From a bacterium (lineage in GTDB: Bacteria > Planctomycetota > Planctomycetia > Planctomycetales > Planctomycetaceae), in the NCBI GenBank assembly GCA_016125225.1, contig WGME01000008.1, forward strand, positions 1-64,000: 64,000 nucleotides of DNA, in the 5' to 3' direction. The notes below the pieces were generated by a model. That model worked only from the letters and a program-made list of their open reading frames with translations. It was not told the DNA's origin and searched no databases. Position numbers and translations under genes: made by a program. This document shows positions 7,810-17,580 of this stretch, piece after piece. Numbering within the stretch: the first letter of the stretch is position 1; each line of letters begins with the position of its first letter.

Positions 7810-9519
7810 TTATGACAGTGAGATGACGGTTGTTTTGCCCGTCTCGTTCGCAACGCCATGCTGGCCATCACCGACGATTCCTGTTGCTTTCAACCGGATG
7901 GTCGAGGGAGATTCGAGCGGACTCTCCAATCGTGTGGGCAAGATCACCGTGAAGATGCTGCCCTTGCCAAACTCGCTGACGAGTTGGACATCACCGCCGA
8001 GCAACTTGGCCAACTCACGGACAATCGACAGCCCCAATCCCGTGCCTTCGTACTGGCGCGTCAACGTATCCTGCATACCGGGCACATTACGTCCCTGGCG
8101 GAACTTCTCGAAGATACGTTCCTGCTCTTCCAGAGGAATGCCGATGCCGGTGTCTTCCACGACGATGGCGAACTGAGTGCGCCCCCGGGCTTCGGCACGC
8201 ACCCGCACACGCCCTCCTTCGGGTGTGAACTTGATGGCATTCGAAAGCAGATTGTTCAGGATCTGCTGCAGTTTCCCGGGGTCTTGCCACAATAAGGGGA
8301 CTCGCGGATCGACATCCCAACCCAGGTCGATGTTCTTCTTCTCGGCGAGGGGCAGCATGGTCCCCACCAGTCGCTCAACCAGATCGGCGACCGAAAACTC
8401 CACCAGATGGAGTTCCATTTTGCCGCTCTCAATTTTTGCCAGATCGAGCACGTCGTTAATCAATGACAGCAGGTTTCGTCCGGACAATTGGATGTTGCCG
8501 ACATACCGGCGTTGCTTGTCGTTCAAGTTCTGCATGCCCAACAGCACATCGCTGAAGCCGAGAATGGAGTTGAGTGGTGTACGCAGTTCGTGACTGATCG
8601 TCGCCAGAAACTCGTTCTTGAGGTTATTCAGTTCGTACAGCCGCATATTGGCCTGGGCCAGTTCATCGTTCTTGCCTTCATAGTCGCGATTGACCGCCTG
8701 GAGTTCTTCCTGCACGGTGACCAGGTGCCGCAGCATGCGGTTGAAAGCATGGCTGAGTTCTTCAAACTCATCACCGGTGCGGATGTCGGCTCGCAGATTG
8801 AGGGCTCCGCGAGCAATGCTGTCGGAGACATCCTTGAGATGCAGCACGGGTTTCACGATGACGTACCGCACAATTGCATAGGCGGCCAGCATTGCCAGAA
8901 AGGCCGTGACAATGCCCGTCGCCAGCAGCGTGGCGTTGTTCCAGGCCAAAGCGCGGTGAGTTTTATCGAGCGGGAAGGAAATTTTGACCATGCCGATCGC
9001 GTCGCCAACGTTCAGATTCGCATTCTGCCCCGCTTGCTTGGCACGATGACAATCGATACAGGATTCGGTCGCATAGACTCCGGCATAATAATTGAACCGT
9101 CTGCCCACCCCGTCCTTGCGCATGTAAACGACTTCATGCTTGCCGGAGCCGATCTCCATCATGGCGCGATAGTCTTCACCGACAGGGCCTGTTGTCGGGT
9201 TCGGGTCCAATGTCATGAGCGCCCAGCTCGACTCTTTGAGATCAGCGGGTTTCAGCTCGGCTGACATCTTGCCGACGTGTTCGGCCATGCTGAATTCTTG
9301 CCCCGATTCCGACCACTTCCAGTGCTTTTCGAGAATGACAGTCGGGACCATCAACCGGGCGGCGATTTCATTCTGCTCGTAGACCAGTTGTGTCGTTTGC
9401 CGGGCGTAGAGATAGAAGCTGCCGGTAATCAACAGCAGCAAACCACTCCCGAACAGGAAGCGGCACTTCCGTTCCAAGCTGGTTTCGCCGAGCAGTTTTT
9501 TGATAGTGCGGTACGACAT
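7810..9519 (-). CDS. Sensor histidine kinase with haem-binding DUF3365-type periplasmic domain
   Basis: 569 residues. A membrane helix at about 20-38 is followed by a periplasmic domain of the Tll0287/DUF3365 kind ending in CIDCH (Cys154, Cys157, His158), a c-type haem attachment motif. A second helix at about 192-215, a HAMP linker and a coiled coil come next. The HisKA box SHELRTPLN (His310) and an ATPase domain (NLLSNAIKF, DTGIGIP, GTGLGLSI) complete it. Such a layout suggests sensing of redox state or a small ligand through bound haem, passing phosphate to a response regulator. No regulator gene is adjacent. It is transcribed away from the 9878 cluster. Confidence 0.9.
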   Translation of the reverse strand: MSYRTIKKLLGETSLERKCRFLFGSGLLLLITGSFYLYARQTTQLVYEQNEIAARLMVPTVILEKHWKWSESGQEFSMAEHVGKMSAELKPADLKESSWALMTLDPNPTTGPVGEDYRAMMEIGSGKHEVVYMRKDGVGRRFNYYAGVYATESCIDCHRAKQAGQNANLNVGDAIGMVKISFPLDKTHRALAWNNATLLATGIVTAFLAMLAAYAIVRYVIVKPVLHLKDVSDSIARGALNLRADIRTGDEFEELSHAFNRMLRHLVTVQEELQAVNRDYEGKNDELAQANMRLYELNNLKNEFLATISHELRTPLNSILGFSDVLLGMQNLNDKQRRYVGNIQLSGRNLLSLINDVLDLAKIESGKMELHLVEFSVADLVERLVGTMLPLAEKKNIDLGWDVDPRVPLLWQDPGKLQQILNNLLSNAIKFTPEGGRVRVRAEARGRTQFAIVVEDTGIGIPLEEQERIFEKFRQGRNVPGMQDTLTRQYEGTGLGLSIVRELAKLLGGDVQLVSEFGKGSIFTVILPTRLESPLESPSTIRLKATGIVGDGQHGVANETGKTTVISLS

Positions 9520-9877: not shown

Positions 9878-10459
9878 ATGTCCATCGAGTTGGCTCGCTG
9901 GCAGCAGGAACTGTTGGAACTACGCGGTATCAGTCAGGGATTGAGCGCCCAACTGCTCGCAGCGGCCGATGACCTGCGCGATCAGGGCAGCGGTATTCCG
10001 AATGACCTATTAACGCAATTGAGTCGATACGGCATGCGTCTGCAGACCTTGCAGGCCAGCCTGCGTTTAGCCTATCCCCAACTCCCCGGCAACCCGTCTC
10101 TCGACGATCTCGAAGTGCTGTTGCAAAGCCAGCAGCATGTGCAGCAAGCGCTGCAGGTGCTCGATTCGGCCAGTCGGTTAAAGCATCGCGAGCAACTCGC
10201 GTTTGCTCCGCTGAATCGTGTGCTGGAACTCTGCCAGTCGTTACGCGAACAGCTTGCAACCCCGGGCGCGTCGGGAGAAACGGCGGAGGATTTAGTGGAA
10301 GGACGACATGCCGTTGCCGCCCTGGTGCAACTGGTGCGCGAGCCCGACAGCCTAACCGATGAACGCTGGCAATCGTTACAGGAATTGGTAGCCCGGCAGT
10401 TTGGCCGAGAACTCGCGACCGCCGTGGCTCGGGGCCGTGTGACGGAATCACTGGCCTGA
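9878..10459 (+). CDS. Helical protein of unknown function, paralogue of the N-terminus of the 878-residue protein
   Basis: 193 residues, predicted almost all helical and rich in Leu and Gln. I recognise no named domain. The C-terminal part (AALVQLVREPDSLTDERWQSLQ, then ELATAVARGRV) lines up with the same position in the protein at 10884 (AAVLALVTQADDLQDDAWVELQ, then LTTALIRGHI). The spacing from the N-terminal helices is also similar. The two therefore look like duplicates of one unit. ATG 9878 was chosen over an upstream GTG because GGAG sits 7 bases before it. First gene of a five- or six-gene co-directional cluster. Confidence 0.7.
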   Translation: MSIELARWQQELLELRGISQGLSAQLLAAADDLRDQGSGIPNDLLTQLSRYGMRLQTLQASLRLAYPQLPGNPSLDDLEVLLQSQQHVQQALQVLDSASRLKHREQLAFAPLNRVLELCQSLREQLATPGASGETAEDLVEGRHAVAALVQLVREPDSLTDERWQSLQELVARQFGRELATAVARGRVTESLA

Positions 10460-10536
10460 ACTTCTTGAGCGCGGGCATCCAAGATCATGCAGGACTTCAC
10501 AGAGCGACAATTAATACCACTTTCCGGGATAGCATC

Positions 10537-10818
10537 ATGAGTGTCTGCCGTTACAAAAACCTGATGTCGTATCTGCCAGGCATGGCTTCGGTCGTGAATG
10601 CGTTTCAATCGCACGACGTGCAACTCGAAGTCTTTCACGAATTGATGAAAGCCCTTGAAACGCGTTTGGAACAGGATGGTGTTCCGCCGTCCGCGGCCGG
10701 TCCCCGGGCGGCATCCCTGAAGCATCTGCTGTCTCAAGCGGCTCAACAGCGCCAGGACGACCTGGAACTCGACCTGGAAGAGGGAGACAGCATTCATACA
10801 GCCCCGGTCCGACCTTGA
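10537..10818 (+). CDS. Small hypothetical protein in the paralogue cluster
   Basis: 93 residues beginning MSVCRYKNLMSY. No family recognised. The centre is helical (VFHELMKALETRLEQDG) and the tail acidic (DDLELDLEEGDS). It lies between the two paralogous genes, on the same strand with short gaps. The frame is open further upstream to 10465, but the ATG at 10537 gives a start beyond the preceding stop with a weak GGGATAG site. Function unknown; its position suggests it belongs with its neighbours. Confidence 0.5.
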   Translation: MSVCRYKNLMSYLPGMASVVNAFQSHDVQLEVFHELMKALETRLEQDGVPPSAAGPRAASLKHLLSQAAQQRQDDLELDLEEGDSIHTAPVRP

Positions 10819-10883
10819 TCTGGTCCGCCCGCCCCGGTTTCAACTTGCATTCGACTACCGCATAGGCTGTTGTTCGGACTTCC

Positions 10884-13520
10884 ATGACATCCCAAGTTGC
10901 CCCGAATTTCGATGATCGCGAACATGCTCGGCTCTGGCTGGCAGCACAGTCGCTCGCCGATGCGCTGAATCGGGCCGCACGCGAACTCGGCATGACCGGC
11001 AGCCCCGTATCCACGTCATTGATACAAGAGGCAGCCGACTACCAGCAGCAGCTACAATCTCATGCAATGAGACTGGCTTCTACAATCCGTCTGCCTGCGG
11101 ATGCGTCATTAAGCTGGAAACGGATTGACGCCGAGCAACAACGGCTGCGGCAACGACAGCAGGCTCGCGACATTCTGGAGCAGCTAGTCCGTCTGCAACA
11201 TACGTCGATCGATCATTTTGAACCACTGATTCCCATTCAGCAGGCGGCCAGTCAGCGGCTGCAAGCGCTCAATGAAGAAACAGAAGGGGACTGGCTCGAT
11301 CTTGAGATCGCGGATCTCTCGCATTACAAGCATCCCTTGGCCGCCGTTCTGGCTTTGGTGACTCAAGCCGATGACCTGCAGGATGATGCCTGGGTGGAAC
11401 TTCAGGACCGCGTGAGTCAAAGTTACGGTCCACGGCTAACAACGGCGTTGATCCGTGGGCATATCTGTATCGCTGCCGTCACGGAGACCACTCCGCAACA
11501 AGATGCTACAGTCGATGAATTGATCACGGATTCCTCTGCGAAGAGTGACAACCCTGTTCTACCGACAGAGCAGGGGTTGTCTGAAGTCGATTCCGCACCG
11601 GTCGGTGAAGACCTCATCTTCGATACGCCATCGCCACCGGAACCACGTCGCTGGTCAATTCAGCCATTGCTGGAAGTTCCACCTGAGGATCGGGAGCAAG
11701 CACCGCCGCCTGAGTTGCAAAGCGGTAGCCTGACTCTTCCAACCGAATCGTTGGAGGAAAGATCAGAGACCGACATCGCGCCATTACCGCAGGTGCCCAC
11801 GCTCGTTAAACCTTCCACACCGTTGCCTCCTCATGCGGGGGGAAATGCCACGCACGACATTGCTCATGCGGTGATGAAGCTGATTCGTGAAGAGCGTTTT
11901 GCCCTCGCGGCCCATCTTGTTGAAGCCGGGGATGCCGACCTCTCCGCGCACTGCCCGGTCTCGGCCCAATTGCTGCGAGCCTGTGCATTAGCCCGGCACA
12001 TCAGCTATCCCAGCGGTGACCTGGCGCATCAACTCGATCGCGATCTGCGACAACTTCCGCCTTTGCCCGCGAAGGCTTATTCCGCTGACGATGAATTCGG
12101 GCTGGGTTTGATCGTCCGTGCGGCCTGTTTGCCACCGGCCATGCTGGGGGCTTCCACCGCCGCAACAACGCTGCTGCGCAGTTTTCCCATCGAACCCGGG
12201 ACCAGCCAGCTTTACAACTTTTGTTCGCGGGTCGCGGCGTATGGCGAGCGGATGCAGGGATTCGCGGCCGAAATGTTTCAGGCCACGGCGGACGAAAATT
12301 CATGGCGGAGCGACGAAGCCAAACTGCAGCGTGATCTGCAACAGTGGTGGACTCTGCTCCCCGAACGCACGGTGACATACACGCGCTCATCGCCTTTATA
12401 TGTGCATGCCCACTGGACGGTAATGACCCGCCCCGTGCAGCAGAGTCCCGAGCGGTTGGAACACTGGCTGACCTGGCAGAACGTCCTCTGTCAACTCGAT
12501 CAGTTGTTGCGACCACTACGGCTAACGGGGCCGGTGGATCGCCAGCGACTGAAGTCCGATGTGCTGCGGTTGACGAACTGGCTGGAAGCTCCGACCTCGC
12601 TTTTCGAAGCGAAAACGCCGTTGAACCTCACGGAGCATCAGCAGAACATTGTGCGAGAAGGTCTGGAGTTGGCACATCGCTGGTTGCGGCTGGACGCGGC
12701 GGCTCCCCAACGGGCCCGTGTGCTGGCTTCGCAAGATCAGGCCGACCTGCTGGAAGACCTCCGTCAGCGGATACCGGCGGTCTTGCAGGAACTGGATCTG
12801 CTAACACGCACCCGTCCGGCCAAATGGTTAATGACCGGAGCCGTTGCCTGCCGTCATATCACAGAATATCTCCAGCGACTCTGCACCGGTCAGCAAACGC
12901 TCGCCGTTCAGGAACCGACCTTGCACGAAGTGTTGCGAGCCGTGCTGTTGAAGGTGCCTAACCTGGAACTCGATGGACAATGGCAACCACTGCTGGACCT
13001 GCGCGATGCCCTGCCCCAACTGATGGATTCCGTTCATCAGGACGAATTGACCTGGCGCGATGCCGTCGAACTCCAAAGCCAGCAGGGTGATCATCTGGCG
13101 ACACAGCGGCTCCTCGACTTACCGGTCTGGGACGATGCCGAACGGCCCGCCTTGCGACAACTTCGATCTCAACGTCTGGAGCAGTGCCGCCAGCAGGCAC
13201 ACCAGTCGTTGACCGAGCTGATTGAACAGATGCAGGCAGCTGCCGATGCCCAGCAGATCACGGCGCAGAGTTGCGAAGAATGGACCGAACGGGCGGATCG
13301 CCTGCTGATTTCCATTCCACGCACGCTCACCTTTGGTCGACTGTGGTCGCAGATTGATGTGCTGCGGCAATCGTGGCAGCGGGTTAGTTCGCCAGAATTC
13401 ACGCGTCCGATGTTTCCTCACGAATCCAGTCCATCCACTCGCACGCTGCTTGTAGATGAAACGCCGGATTCACCGACCACCGAAGCCTCGACATCGACCG
13501 CGTCCGATTGGGTGTTTTAA
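10884..13520 (+). CDS. Large helical protein of unknown function with duplicated N-terminal unit
   Basis: 878 residues, no signal peptide and no membrane segment. Residues 1-195 match the whole protein at 9878. Residues 200-330 form a Pro/Glu/Ser-rich linker with low complexity. From about 335 to 850 there is a long helical region starting DIAHAVMKLIREERFALAAHLVEAG, suggestive of an alpha-solenoid scaffold. The tail is Ser/Thr-rich. No nucleotide-binding motif is visible. It overlaps nothing, but its stop (13520) lies only 14 bases before the next start, so co-translation with the TPR protein is likely. A scaffold or partner-binding role is inference only. Confidence 0.75.
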   Translation: MTSQVAPNFDDREHARLWLAAQSLADALNRAARELGMTGSPVSTSLIQEAADYQQQLQSHAMRLASTIRLPADASLSWKRIDAEQQRLRQRQQARDILEQLVRLQHTSIDHFEPLIPIQQAASQRLQALNEETEGDWLDLEIADLSHYKHPLAAVLALVTQADDLQDDAWVELQDRVSQSYGPRLTTALIRGHICIAAVTETTPQQDATVDELITDSSAKSDNPVLPTEQGLSEVDSAPVGEDLIFDTPSPPEPRRWSIQPLLEVPPEDREQAPPPELQSGSLTLPTESLEERSETDIAPLPQVPTLVKPSTPLPPHAGGNATHDIAHAVMKLIREERFALAAHLVEAGDADLSAHCPVSAQLLRACALARHISYPSGDLAHQLDRDLRQLPPLPAKAYSADDEFGLGLIVRAACLPPAMLGASTAATTLLRSFPIEPGTSQLYNFCSRVAAYGERMQGFAAEMFQATADENSWRSDEAKLQRDLQQWWTLLPERTVTYTRSSPLYVHAHWTVMTRPVQQSPERLEHWLTWQNVLCQLDQLLRPLRLTGPVDRQRLKSDVLRLTNWLEAPTSLFEAKTPLNLTEHQQNIVREGLELAHRWLRLDAAAPQRARVLASQDQADLLEDLRQRIPAVLQELDLLTRTRPAKWLMTGAVACRHITEYLQRLCTGQQTLAVQEPTLHEVLRAVLLKVPNLELDGQWQPLLDLRDALPQLMDSVHQDELTWRDAVELQSQQGDHLATQRLLDLPVWDDAERPALRQLRSQRLEQCRQQAHQSLTELIEQMQAAADAQQITAQSCEEWTERADRLLISIPRTLTFGRLWSQIDVLRQSWQRVSSPEFTRPMFPHESSPSTRTLLVDETPDSPTTEASTSTASDWVF

Positions 13521-13534
13521 CCGAACGCAACACC

Positions 13535-15490
13535 ATGTATACCGAAGCCCAACTTCTGCAGCAAATCGCGGACGCCCGCAAAAACGGGACGGCAGTCCAG
13601 CCGCGCGTGTTGCACGCCTGCCAGAATCTCGCCGACTGGTATGTTAGCGTCGGGCGGCTCAACGATGCCGAGCAGCGCTGGGCCAACCTCATCAAGGAAC
13701 TTGATGGCCTGCCGGATGCCAAGCTGGCTGACCGAGCCGTGGCGCATGTCCGCCGTGCAGAAGTCCTGCATGCCTTGGGACAATTGCAGGCCGAGCAGAC
13801 GGAACTCTGGACCGCGATTGAGATACTCCATCAGGAACCACAACCCCCGCGACTCGATTTGGCCTACATCCTGAATCAGTTGGCGGAAGTCACCTATGCG
13901 CTGGGCCGTTATGAAACGGCACTCACGGCCAGTCAACAGGCATTGGCCTGGCTCACCGATGTGGTGCCGACCAGCCATCATGAAATGGTTCGGACCCGCA
14001 ACAATCTTGCGGCGACTCACGTCGTGAGAGGTGAATTCGCGCTGGCCGAACGACTGCTGCGTCAAAATCTGAAATTGCTGGCCCGGCAATACGGCGAACA
14101 GGACGCCGGCCTGGTGATACCGCTGCAGAATCTCGCCGAAGTTTTGCGGGCCACGGGCAAGTTGACCGAAGCCGAAAAAGTCTTACAGACGGCCGAACAG
14201 ATTGCGACCCGTCGATTCGGCTCGGCCCATGCCATCACTTTGCATGGTTTGATGCTCAAGGCTGATTTGCTGGTATTTCAAGGCGATCTTTCGACGGCCG
14301 AACGATTGTTGCGGCAGGTTCTCGAGACTCGTCAGGCGACCGCACCCGACGATCGTGTGCCGATGGCTCGGACTCTGCTGGAACTGGGACAGATTTTGTG
14401 CCAGCGTAGTCGGTACCGCGAGGCCGAACCCGTGCTCGATGCCGCATTGCAACTGGTGCTGACGTTACATGGAGAAACGCATCCGAAAACGTCGGCCGTG
14501 TATGTGGCCTTAAGTCGGCTCTACCTTGGTCTTGGTCGACTGGCGAATGCCGAACGATCGATTCAGAAGGCCCTGGGCATTCAACAGTTGGCTTTACATC
14601 CGCAAGCGACGGCTCATGCGGAAACCCATCGGCAGCATGCCATCATCGCCGCCACTCGCGGTGACTGGGCCACTGCTCAAGCTGCTATCCAACGGGCACT
14701 CGATCAGATTGAGCGAACCGATGCCGGGGCAGCGGAATTGCCATTTCAGGTCTTTCTCACGGCTGCCGATCTCGCCCTGCAAACGGGGAATATTGATACC
14801 GCCGATCAGCATCTGGCGCGTGCCGATGCCATGCGCACATCGCCACAGATTTCATTGCGGTCACGGCTGACTTTCCGCCGCTTGCGAGCGCTCGTCGCAC
14901 TGAAACAGAACGATCTAACCGCAGCGGCGACGGCCTGTGAGCGAGCCTTTGCGATCCTGCAAGCATTGCCGACCCATCCTCCCGAAGAAGCGGCACAACT
15001 GGCCGCCGTTGCTGCGGATGTGGCTTTGCTGCAGCAAGACTTCGCTACATGCTTGTCCCTGTGTGAGCAGGAACGGGTCTTCCGTCAGTTGCTAGGACAA
15101 GGTGAAGCGTTATCGGTCGCGAATTTGTACTTCCGTCAAGCCCAGGCCCTGCAACAGCAGCAGGCCTTTGCACCGGCGGTGACGGCCTTTCAGCAAGCAT
15201 TGGCTATCGCTGAACGGTCCTACCAGGCGCCAGCGGGTTTCGTGCAGGAGATTGTCGAGCGGCTGGCCCGGTTGCATCTGTTGCAGCGTGACTTCCAGGC
15301 GTTCCGACCCTGGATGCAACGGGTTTTGAGCTTGTGGAATGCTTCCGATGAGACGCCGGATACCACGATTTGCGAAGACTGGATTCCGGTGTTGCGCAAT
15401 GCGGGAGAAGCCGTCACCGCAGACGAACTGACCGATCAACTGGTGCTCTTGCAGAACCGGCAATCGCATGTGCTGGGAGACCTGTTATGA
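13535..15490 (+). CDS. Tetratricopeptide repeat protein
   Basis: 651 residues made of TPR-like helical pairs through most of its length, for example 'ALGRYETALTASQQALAWL', 'EFALAERLLRQNLKLL', 'LSTAERLLRQVLETR' and 'LGRLANAERSIQKALGIQ'. No other domain and no signal sequence. It probably scaffolds protein interactions. The ATG at 13535 follows the stop of the 878-residue gene by 14 bases; an in-frame TTG at 13508 would overlap that gene. Its stop overlaps the next start (ATGA at 15487-15490), so translation of the isomerase gene is likely coupled to this one. Confidence 0.85.
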   Translation: MYTEAQLLQQIADARKNGTAVQPRVLHACQNLADWYVSVGRLNDAEQRWANLIKELDGLPDAKLADRAVAHVRRAEVLHALGQLQAEQTELWTAIEILHQEPQPPRLDLAYILNQLAEVTYALGRYETALTASQQALAWLTDVVPTSHHEMVRTRNNLAATHVVRGEFALAERLLRQNLKLLARQYGEQDAGLVIPLQNLAEVLRATGKLTEAEKVLQTAEQIATRRFGSAHAITLHGLMLKADLLVFQGDLSTAERLLRQVLETRQATAPDDRVPMARTLLELGQILCQRSRYREAEPVLDAALQLVLTLHGETHPKTSAVYVALSRLYLGLGRLANAERSIQKALGIQQLALHPQATAHAETHRQHAIIAATRGDWATAQAAIQRALDQIERTDAGAAELPFQVFLTAADLALQTGNIDTADQHLARADAMRTSPQISLRSRLTFRRLRALVALKQNDLTAAATACERAFAILQALPTHPPEEAAQLAAVAADVALLQQDFATCLSLCEQERVFRQLLGQGEALSVANLYFRQAQALQQQQAFAPAVTAFQQALAIAERSYQAPAGFVQEIVERLARLHLLQRDFQAFRPWMQRVLSLWNASDETPDTTICEDWIPVLRNAGEAVTADELTDQLVLLQNRQSHVLGDLL

Positions 15491-15942
15491 ACGCGGACAA
15501 CCTGCAAATTCAAACGGGCGATCGAGTGGTGCTGCATTACACCACTTACTCACAGGACGACTGCCTGATTGAGACCTCACGCAATCGTGAACCGCTGGAG
15601 TTTGTCGTCGGTACCTCCGAGATTGTCGCCGGCCTGCAGCGAGCGGTTCTCGGTCTGGCGGAAGGTCAAACGCACCGTTTTCCGGTGATGCCGGAACTCG
15701 CCTTTGGGTTACGACAGAGCCGCCTGCAACCGACCGTTCCACGTTGTGGCCTTCCGGACAACGTGCAGGAAGGTGTTCAACTTCAAACTCAGCCGGCTGA
15801 GTCGGGTCTTGACGTATGGATCAAGCAGCTTCGCGAACATGAGATGATTCTGGATGCGAATCATCCCCTGGCGGGTGAAACGTTGTTATATGATGTCGAA
15901 ATCCTCTCGATACAGCGTCCCCCATCTCTGGAAACCGTCTGA
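15487..15942 (+). CDS. SlyD-like FKBP-type peptidyl-prolyl isomerase
   Basis: 151 residues. The FKBP core is recognisable: GDRVVLHYTTYSQDD, then LEFVVGTSEIVAGLQRAVLGLAEGQTHRF, which mirrors 'xxFxxGxGxxIxGLExALxGMxxGE' of SlyD. LDANHPLAGETLLYDVEILSI near the C-terminus is the SlyD/SlpA ending. Between them lies the flap region (VPRCGLPDNVQEG). The His-rich metal-binding tail of SlyD is missing. It probably isomerises X-Pro bonds or acts as a chaperone in the cytoplasm. Its start overlaps the stop of the TPR gene by four bases, which argues for a shared role in that cluster. Confidence 0.85.
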   Translation: MNADNLQIQTGDRVVLHYTTYSQDDCLIETSRNREPLEFVVGTSEIVAGLQRAVLGLAEGQTHRFPVMPELAFGLRQSRLQPTVPRCGLPDNVQEGVQLQTQPAESGLDVWIKQLREHEMILDANHPLAGETLLYDVEILSIQRPPSLETV

Positions 15943-16056
15943 TTGTATTCACTTAAACCCTTCGCTTAAGTCCATTTTGTGATTCCATTTTTTCAATAAA
16001 GCCCATCACGTCCGCCGCAGTTTCTGCGACTTCGATCTGTCAAGGTGCAGACCACC

Positions 16057-17580
16057 ATGAGTTTAAAACTGACCGCCGCTTCTTTTCTGACAGGCGTCAA
16101 GCAAAGCGGCCTGATTCCCGCGGACAAATTGAACCGTCTGCTGGACGAATGCCAGTCGAACGGCGTGAATCTCGCGGATTCCGCCGCCATCGCTGCCGCG
16201 TTTGTGCAACGGGGGGCATTGACCGATTGGCAATCGGAAAAATTGTTGCAAGGACGGCACAAAGGTTTTCTGCTGGGCCGGTACCGGTTACTGGCGCTGC
16301 TGGGCACGGGAGAAATGTCTGCGGTTTATCTGGCTGAGCACGTGACGATGGAACGCCGCTGTGCGATTAAAGTGTTGCCAGCGGCCAAGGTCAAAGACAC
16401 TTCGTATCTGGGACGGTTCCTGCGTGAAGCCAAGGCGGTCGCCACGCTTAACCATCCCAACATCGTGAAAGCCTACGATGTCGATCAGCAGAGCGAAGGG
16501 GGCACTGAGATTCACTTCCTCGTCATGGAGTACGTGGATGGCCGCAATCTCGGCAAAATCGTCGAACAACAAGGGCCGCTTGGCTACATCGAGGCGGCGG
16601 ACTACATCCGTCAGGCTGCCGACGGATTGCACCATGCCCATGACCACGGTCTGGTCCATCGCGATGTGAAGCCCGAGAATCTGCTCATCGATTCCCAGGG
16701 GAAAGTGCACCTGCTCGATTTGGGACTCGCCCGGTTCTTTAAGTCGGAAGAAGAAGAATCGCTGACCATCAAGCACGATGAAAAGGTGCTGGGTACCGCC
16801 GATTATCTGGCCCCCGAACAGGCGATCGACAGTCACAATGTCGATCATCGCGTCGACATTTACAGTCTCGGCTGTACGTTTTATTACAGCCTGACCGGGC
16901 ACCCGCCGTTTACCGATGGGTCTCTGGTCCAGCGACTCCTGGCACATCAGACGCGCCAGCCGCCGTCTGTCCGCTTTGACCGTGCCGATGTCCCCGATGA
17001 TCTCTTGGAGATTCTGGAACGCATGATGGCCAAGAAGGCCGACGACCGGTTTCAATCGGCCGAAGAGGTTTCCCGGGCGTTATCGCTGTGGCTGATTCGC
17101 CATGCCTCGGATGACTGGCGGCACAACAATCTCTCGCTGGTGGCGACCCATACCCGTGGTACGTCGTCGCTGGCAGCTGTTGGCCATCGCCCGGAAAACC
17201 GCGAGAGTGATAGCGTTGCCCAACCGCCTGCAACTTCCAAGCGTTCGTCAGCACCGAAGGTCTCTGACTCGATGCCCATGGTCACGCTGGCTCCACGGCT
17301 CCGCAGCGTTCCCACACCGGTACCGGTGGAACCACCTGCAGCAGCATCCGCGTCTGCGACCAAAGAACCCGCACCACGCAAGCCAACACCGACGACCGCT
17401 GCACGGAAATCAGTAGCGAAGGCAACCCCGCGCGATTGGGAACGGACGATTCTTGTGGCAGTCATGGCGGCCGTGCTGTTTACCGCGATCGGTGTCGGTG
17501 TCTGGCTGGTCAATGCCCAGCAACCTGAAACCCTCAAGGCCAGTACCACGCCAGACTCAGCAGAGGTGATCTCCGAATAG
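16057..17580 (+). CDS. Membrane-anchored Ser/Thr protein kinase
   Basis: 507 residues. Residues 1-70 form a planctomycete-type N-terminal region found before many such kinases (FLTGVKQSGLIPADKL, ALTDWQSEKLLQGRHKGF). The kinase domain follows: GRYRLLALLGTGEMSAVYLAEH (glycine loop with Ser for the third Gly), AIKVL with Lys105, HRDVKPENLL, DLGLARF (DLG instead of DFG) and GTADYLAPEQ. A Ser/Pro-rich linker leads to one helix near residues 465-488 (ILVAVMAAVLFTAIGVGVWLV) and a short tail outside the membrane. It therefore phosphorylates proteins from the cytoplasmic side. AAGGTG precedes the ATG. It lies on the same strand as the cluster starting at 9878, after a 114-base gap. Confidence 0.92.
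   Translation: MSLKLTAASFLTGVKQSGLIPADKLNRLLDECQSNGVNLADSAAIAAAFVQRGALTDWQSEKLLQGRHKGFLLGRYRLLALLGTGEMSAVYLAEHVTMERRCAIKVLPAAKVKDTSYLGRFLREAKAVATLNHPNIVKAYDVDQQSEGGTEIHFLVMEYVDGRNLGKIVEQQGPLGYIEAADYIRQAADGLHHAHDHGLVHRDVKPENLLIDSQGKVHLLDLGLARFFKSEEEESLTIKHDEKVLGTADYLAPEQAIDSHNVDHRVDIYSLGCTFYYSLTGHPPFTDGSLVQRLLAHQTRQPPSVRFDRADVPDDLLEILERMMAKKADDRFQSAEEVSRALSLWLIRHASDDWRHNNLSLVATHTRGTSSLAAVGHRPENRESDSVAQPPATSKRSSAPKVSDSMPMVTLAPRLRSVPTPVPVEPPAAASASATKEPAPRKPTPTTAARKSVAKATPRDWERTILVAVMAAVLFTAIGVGVWLVNAQQPETLKASTTPDSAEVISE

Follow-up and report, generated by a model that had tools for sequence, protein, structure and literature searches.

What kind of unit, if any, is formed by six neighbouring genes at positions 9878 to 17580 of the stretch of DNA analysed here (64,000 nucleotides of contig WGME01000008.1, assembly GCA_016125225.1, from a member of the Planctomycetaceae; hereafter the window)? 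That the six genes are a conserved unit is well supported by the loci of relatives, while its function is something that we infer. We put the chances at about even that they encode a Planctomycetaceae-specific membrane scaffold-and-kinase module, in which the small protein mid would act as the adaptor of the kinase, and which would usually be attached to a bactofilin. The genes are as follows.

9878..10459, + strand: sP, a 193-residue helical protein, paralogue of the LP N-terminal domain
10537..10818, + strand: mid, 93 residues, with a helical hairpin, a disordered linker and a C-terminal motif
10884..13520, + strand: LP, an 878-residue, two-domain helical protein
13535..15490, + strand: TPR protein, 651 residues
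15487..15942, + strand: SlyD-like FKBP peptidyl-prolyl isomerase, 151 residues, with an FKBP_C domain
16057..17580, + strand: membrane-anchored Hanks-type Ser/Thr kinase, with a Pkinase domain and a C-terminal transmembrane segment

A preliminary description of this DNA had named five of these genes, which are present and co-directional where it placed them, but it overlooked the sixth, mid, between sP and LP. Its domain assignments are borne out by domain search (TPR_12 for the TPR protein, FKBP_C with SlyD-like length and architecture for the isomerase, and Pkinase for the kinase), although the kinase probably starts at ATG 16057 (507 residues), where its homologues start, and not at GTG 16045. 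The helical unit that it saw in two of the proteins is genuine, since sP and LP residues 19-194 are 31% identical (E = 7e-18) and are true paralogues; the TPR gene does begin 14 bases past the LP stop, and the TPR stop overlaps the FKBP start by 4 bases (ATGA). Its view of the cluster as a unit without a described counterpart, perhaps one that serves protein assembly or signalling, is supported as well, but lacked mid, the link to bactofilin and the reduced versions of the cassette described below.

Distribution of the cassette and its link to bactofilin

Relatives were drawn from a family sample of 150 Planctomycetaceae genomes and a phylum sample of 392 genomes, and neighbouring genes were clustered over 21 loci. 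In 16-20 loci of other members of the family the genes follow one another as sP-mid-LP-TPR-FKBP-kinase, even though LP is only 22-35% identical among them. A cluster that has this order in about a dozen genera is far beyond chance. The preliminary description would have been refuted by homologues that occur mostly without these neighbours, which is not what the loci of relatives contain. In the family sample mid is found in 28/150 genomes and LP in 23/150 by single-sequence search or 25/150 by profile; of these regions 20 were read, and the FKBP gene is present in 17 other loci of that set. Across the phylum sample, mid occurs only in Planctomycetaceae, and LP has one weak partial match outside the family (E = 5e-9). 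Public genomes scanned with the mid profile gave 16 loci, whose titles name Schlesneria, Planctomicrobium, Planctomycetaceae or Planctomycetota; a scan of genome contigs with the LP sequence alone returned no match.

The limits of the unit can be read from its neighbours. When all genes of the 21 loci are clustered against each other, only the cassette genes and two upstream genes, bactofilin and a family designated C6, recur in at least five loci (the next family, DUF1501-like, recurs in four), and so the linkage ends at the cassette. The FKBP gene is inverted in four relatives, still between the TPR and kinase genes; a single transcript is thus not obligatory, and selection for the neighbourhood is favoured over mere shared transcription. 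A promoter scan of the cluster gave no sigma-70-like site and terminator-like sites occur at chance level, so that operon limits are unreadable from the sequence.

Several loci carry fewer genes. Genomes of genus g56 have bactofilin-mid-TPR-kinase, with sP, LP and FKBP absent, one genome (G059) has bactofilin-mid-kinase only, and the TPR gene is absent from two loci (L064 and L069). Throughout, no part of the cassette is as constant as mid: it lies between sP and LP wherever those occur (sP being upstream of mid in complete LP-bearing loci), and the kinase is the sole gene that stands beside it in every intact locus. The reduced versions show a core of mid and kinase, to which sP, LP and FKBP have been added.

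In at least 12 of 20 loci, what lies upstream of sP is a bactofilin gene (PF04519, E = 2e-23). With a clear bactofilin defined as a PF04519 match at E < 1e-20, one is present in 20/28 mid-bearing and 0/122 mid-less family genomes (Fisher p = 8.6e-19, ignoring shared ancestry), or, counted by genus, in 10/14 genera with mid and 0/44 without (p = 1.9e-8, with shared ancestry likewise ignored). The pattern in genus g34, where mid and bactofilin occur together in two genomes and neither is reported in the other sampled members, helps to lessen the concern about shared ancestry without being a formal correction. In 19/20 genomes mid follows the bactofilin at a distance of 0.25-1.2 kb. Most cassette bactofilins start with MFG.K.KK or similar, which is close to the published membrane-targeting consensus MFSKKKK (PMC12448750) and which we count in favour of a membrane-bound module.

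C6 (L061 7412-7927; also in L062, L063, L070 and L072-L076) is a membrane protein of ~170 residues encoded just upstream of bactofilin, with one N-terminal hydrophobic segment and a domain without a Pfam match. In genus g56 (L087 5675-10721, L089 6237-11249) the bactofilin is just downstream of SecA-like and Kdo transferase-like genes, which were recognised by eye. The position held by bactofilin in relatives is occupied in the window by a divergent histidine kinase (7810-9519, - strand) with HAMP and a weak Tll0287-like sensor domain.

Proteins and tail motifs

The domains and short motifs that bear on a mechanism are the following (coordinates in the window unless residues are given; pLDDT is the AlphaFold2 confidence score).

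10771..10797, + strand: mid C-terminal motif DLEEGDSIH (consensus DLVEG[DE]SIH), in 16/16 loci, a predicted docking peptide
10908..11480, + strand: LP N-terminal sP-like domain, residues ~9-199, with limits from the sP alignment and AlphaFold2
LP residues 200-319: disordered linker, predicted by AlphaFold2
11841..13403, + strand: LP C-terminal helical domain, residues 320-840, pLDDT mostly >80, followed by a disordered tail
13506..13517, + strand: LP C-terminal tail DWVF (relatives WVFLEE, WxMDF, FDIFSGE), conserved as W..DF or FDIF
15464..15487, + strand: TPR C-terminal tail SHVLGDLL (consensus HVLDDLF/HVLGELL/HVLL), a predicted docking peptide

The mid proteins are 35-54% identical across the loci of relatives, and consist of an N-terminal region with the consensus Y..LL..LP.MA.VVN.F.SP.VQ..VY..L..AL, a variable stretch and the C-terminal motif. 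The invariant positions of the alignments are LPxxA..VN.F....VQ...L and G.[SN]IH. In the AlphaFold2 model, residues 3-46 form a helical hairpin (pLDDT mostly 70-90) and the C-terminal tail is disordered (pLDDT < 50). No Pfam, NCBIfam or PADLOC family scores over its cut-off for mid, a sequence-profile search of the PDB gave no credible match, and Foldseek on the model gave none with E<=0.001. Two roles considered for the tail are weakened: the serine of GESIH as an obligatory phosphosite, by the asparagine found there in two relatives (L074 GDNIH, L089 GENIH), and a peptide for bactofilin only, by the retention of the tail in genomes that have no bactofilin. An isolated mid-like frame (L167 3634-3879 region, genome G133) stands in a 13.5-kb contig with no other cassette gene. 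The gene is easily overlooked in annotation, and is the marker of the system.

The helical proteins are equally isolated in the databases. For sP, no Pfam family is over cut-off and there is no NCBIfam or PADLOC match; for LP, no family is over cut-off in Pfam, NCBIfam or PADLOC, a sequence profile gives no PDB match, and Foldseek finds none for the AlphaFold2 model with E<=0.001. The best VIA-align Z for LP, 7.0, is no higher than common helical arrangements give; matches to vinculin/talin-like bundles (Z ~6) are likewise at that level and were not read as kinship, and these comparisons fall short of proving a new fold. LP is 22-35% identical among the loci of relatives, and its C-terminal helical domain is the best-conserved part, judged by invariant alignment columns. 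In 13/16 relatives the linker contains a motif of the S[IV]F[DE] type, compared with 0.46 expected in shuffles, although the motif was chosen post hoc and no exact copy of it occurs in the LP of the window. In genome G051 (L058 7852-9456), LP has 534 residues and lacks the N-terminal sP-like domain, and a separate sP is present. In genome G049 (L095 6039-11170), an sP-like gene directly precedes one for a 1495-residue LP-like protein, with no mid, FKBP or cassette kinase nearby; this pair is a distant or derived relative of sP/LP.

The TPR protein matches TPR_12 (Pfam, E=2.7e-46), and H[VA]L is found among the last residues in 14/15 sequences. Some relatives are longer, up to 1263 residues, with an extra N-terminal region of weak, sub-threshold similarity to P-loop NTPases (AAA_22/DUF7779), in which arginine replaces the Walker A lysine in both long forms that were read. 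A caspase-like CHAT domain was considered for the long relatives and was not found by domain search. In NCBIfam the protein scores 85.9 bits against the FxSxx-COOH system model NF040586 (cut-off 300), with the match limited to the TPR region, and PADLOC gives a chance-level match only (E=0.0033). The isomerase has an FKBP_C domain (E=6.8e-13, 49.2 bits, Pfam cut-off 21.1). Its two NCBIfam matches are both below cut-off (PRK15095, E=1.1e-15, 57.4/125 bits; PRK10737, E=6.1e-11, 42.6/174 bits), and it has no PADLOC match.

The kinase (Pkinase, Pfam E=1.5e-51) is of the Hanks type, with the VAIK-type lysine, HRD (HRDVKPEN), DxG (DLGLA) and APE all present, and has a transmembrane peak near residue 468; most cassette kinases likewise have intact catalytic motifs and a single C-terminal transmembrane segment. 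Against NCBIfam PknB_PASTA it scores 303.6 bits (cut-off 450), and it has no PASTA domain. Its family is an ordinary one, as the window's genome has 51 Pkinase matches and most family genomes have close paralogues. In a tree with the nearest sampled paralogues, the 27 cassette kinases group together to the exclusion of those paralogues (support 0.67).

A proposed membrane module and competing readings

In the mechanism that we propose, the kinase would span the inner membrane once, its kinase domain facing the cytosol. The hairpin of mid would bind one partner and its C-terminal peptide (DLVEGDSIH) would dock on another, for which the kinase is the likeliest candidate, as no other gene adjoins mid in every intact locus. 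Around this mid-kinase core, sP, LP and the TPR protein would build a helical scaffold held together by the short tail motifs (WxxDF on LP and HVLDDL on TPR), and the SlyD-like isomerase may help these three to fold or assemble. Most relatives would have the module attached to bactofilin, whose membrane-bound and non-dynamic polymer would keep it at one place in the cell, and the kinase would control assembly at that site, with cell-envelope growth or morphogenesis the likeliest output; in the window's genome it would work without bactofilin or with a substitute. The tails of LP, TPR and mid are conserved but predicted to be disordered, which suggests that they are docking peptides. A precedent for such docking is the bactofilin client PbpC, which binds BacA through a short conserved peptide of 13 residues, PbpC 1-13 (PMC12448750). 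As the mid tail is kept where bactofilin is missing, its main target is suggested to be the kinase or the scaffold. The physical contacts, the regulation of the kinase and its phosphorylation targets, and the envelope or shape function are the parts of this scheme that we infer.

Several observations weigh against such a module. Eight genomes, including the window's own, have mid and no clear bactofilin, which is therefore not obligatory; some of the eight are fragmentary assemblies, in which the absence could reflect assembly gaps, and in the window's genome neither PF04519 nor a bactofilin of the same genus gives a match. The mid motif, to judge from its retention in bactofilin-less genomes, probably does not serve for bactofilin binding alone. 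TPR, FKBP and LP, each missing from some of the reduced loci listed above, are inessential to the core, the cassette is scattered in two genomes (G040 and G018), and the support for the kinase clade is modest.

A more specific version of the proposal is possible but somewhat less probable than the module in its general form: an undescribed cytoskeletal signalling complex in which mid would tether the transmembrane kinase to bactofilin and an sP/LP scaffold and so control envelope growth or budding, the scaffold having replaced bactofilin in some lineages, that of the window included.

The next reading, which we regard as unlikely, is a regulatory or stress-signalling operon, in which the kinase would phosphorylate sP, LP and TPR, and bactofilin would be a mere upstream neighbour sharing a promoter. 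The persistence of the cassette in the bactofilin-less genomes agrees with this, as does the weak AAA_22/DUF7779 N-terminus of some long TPR forms, since such regions occur in signalling ATPases. However, a mere neighbour would sometimes stand alone, and a clear bactofilin is never found without mid in the family; moreover, bactofilin is still adjacent where sP, LP and FKBP are gone.

It is improbable that the genes are a protein-folding or export assembly unit, in which FKBP would serve LP as chaperone and TPR as co-chaperone, the kinase being an unrelated neighbour. FKBP does adjoin TPR and LP in most loci, and the TPR array with its tail motifs may generally resemble chaperone docking, but FKBP and LP are absent from loci in which mid, TPR and the kinase stay, which places the kinase closer to the core than FKBP, and the cassette kinases form a clade of their own.

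Least probable of all is an anti-phage or conflict system with an NTPase-like TPR protein, a kinase effector and rapidly evolving helical sensors, which would fit the patchy occurrence of mid, the fast divergence of LP, the NTPase-like N-termini of some TPR relatives and the resemblance of the kinase to the PADLOC PD-T4-6 models, but that resemblance is generic to kinases, none of sP, mid, LP and FKBP matches a PADLOC model, the Walker A lysine is replaced in both long TPR forms that were read, the recurring neighbours in the 21 clustered loci include no toxic effector, nuclease or other defence gene, and the cassette occurs in a single family and has a cytoskeletal gene linked to it.

Known systems and planctomycete cell organisation

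Planctomycetes have no FtsZ and divide by budding, and in Planctopirus limnophila mreB, ftsI and ftsW can be deleted with growth kept (PMC6952346). The cassette offers a testable lead on how these FtsZ-less cells are organised, in the form of a defined group of candidates with a narrow distribution. These are a bactofilin, a membrane kinase dedicated to the cassette, and no fewer than two families of proteins that have no known relatives, mid and sP/LP. Their linkage is strong enough that a genetic test is warranted. The open-access literature, which was the scope of our search (subscription journals lay outside it), describes no planctomycete bactofilin-kinase cassette.

The nearest known kind is the bactofilin-client scaffold, exemplified by BacA-PbpC of Caulobacter (PMC12448750). 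Shared with the cassette of most relatives are a bactofilin with an MF.K.KK-type membrane-targeting N-terminus, proteins with disordered linkers and short conserved peptides (putative docking peptides in the cassette), and a bitopic membrane enzyme as partner. Here, however, the partner is a Ser/Thr kinase with orphan helical proteins and not a cell-wall synthase, and the defining feature, a bactofilin, is not detectable in the window's genome; the cassette is accordingly compared with this kind and not placed in it.

Single components also have known counterparts. The FxSxx-COOH system combines a TPR_12 array with a small partner protein bearing a conserved C-terminal motif, as here, but the TPR protein is below the NF040586 cut-off and the mid motif is different. 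The isomerase resembles FKBPs of the SlyD/FkpB type in its FKBP_C domain, its length and its C-terminal NHPLAG..L...V region; unlike them, it is below the NCBIfam cut-offs, has no His/Cys-rich metal tail and is encoded in a cassette. The kinase shares with Hanks-type kinases such as PknB and Stk1 a cytosolic kinase domain, a single transmembrane segment and intact catalytic motifs, and differs from them in its short extracytoplasmic tail without PASTA, in an N-terminal extension that is common to its planctomycete relatives, and in its fixed cassette partners.

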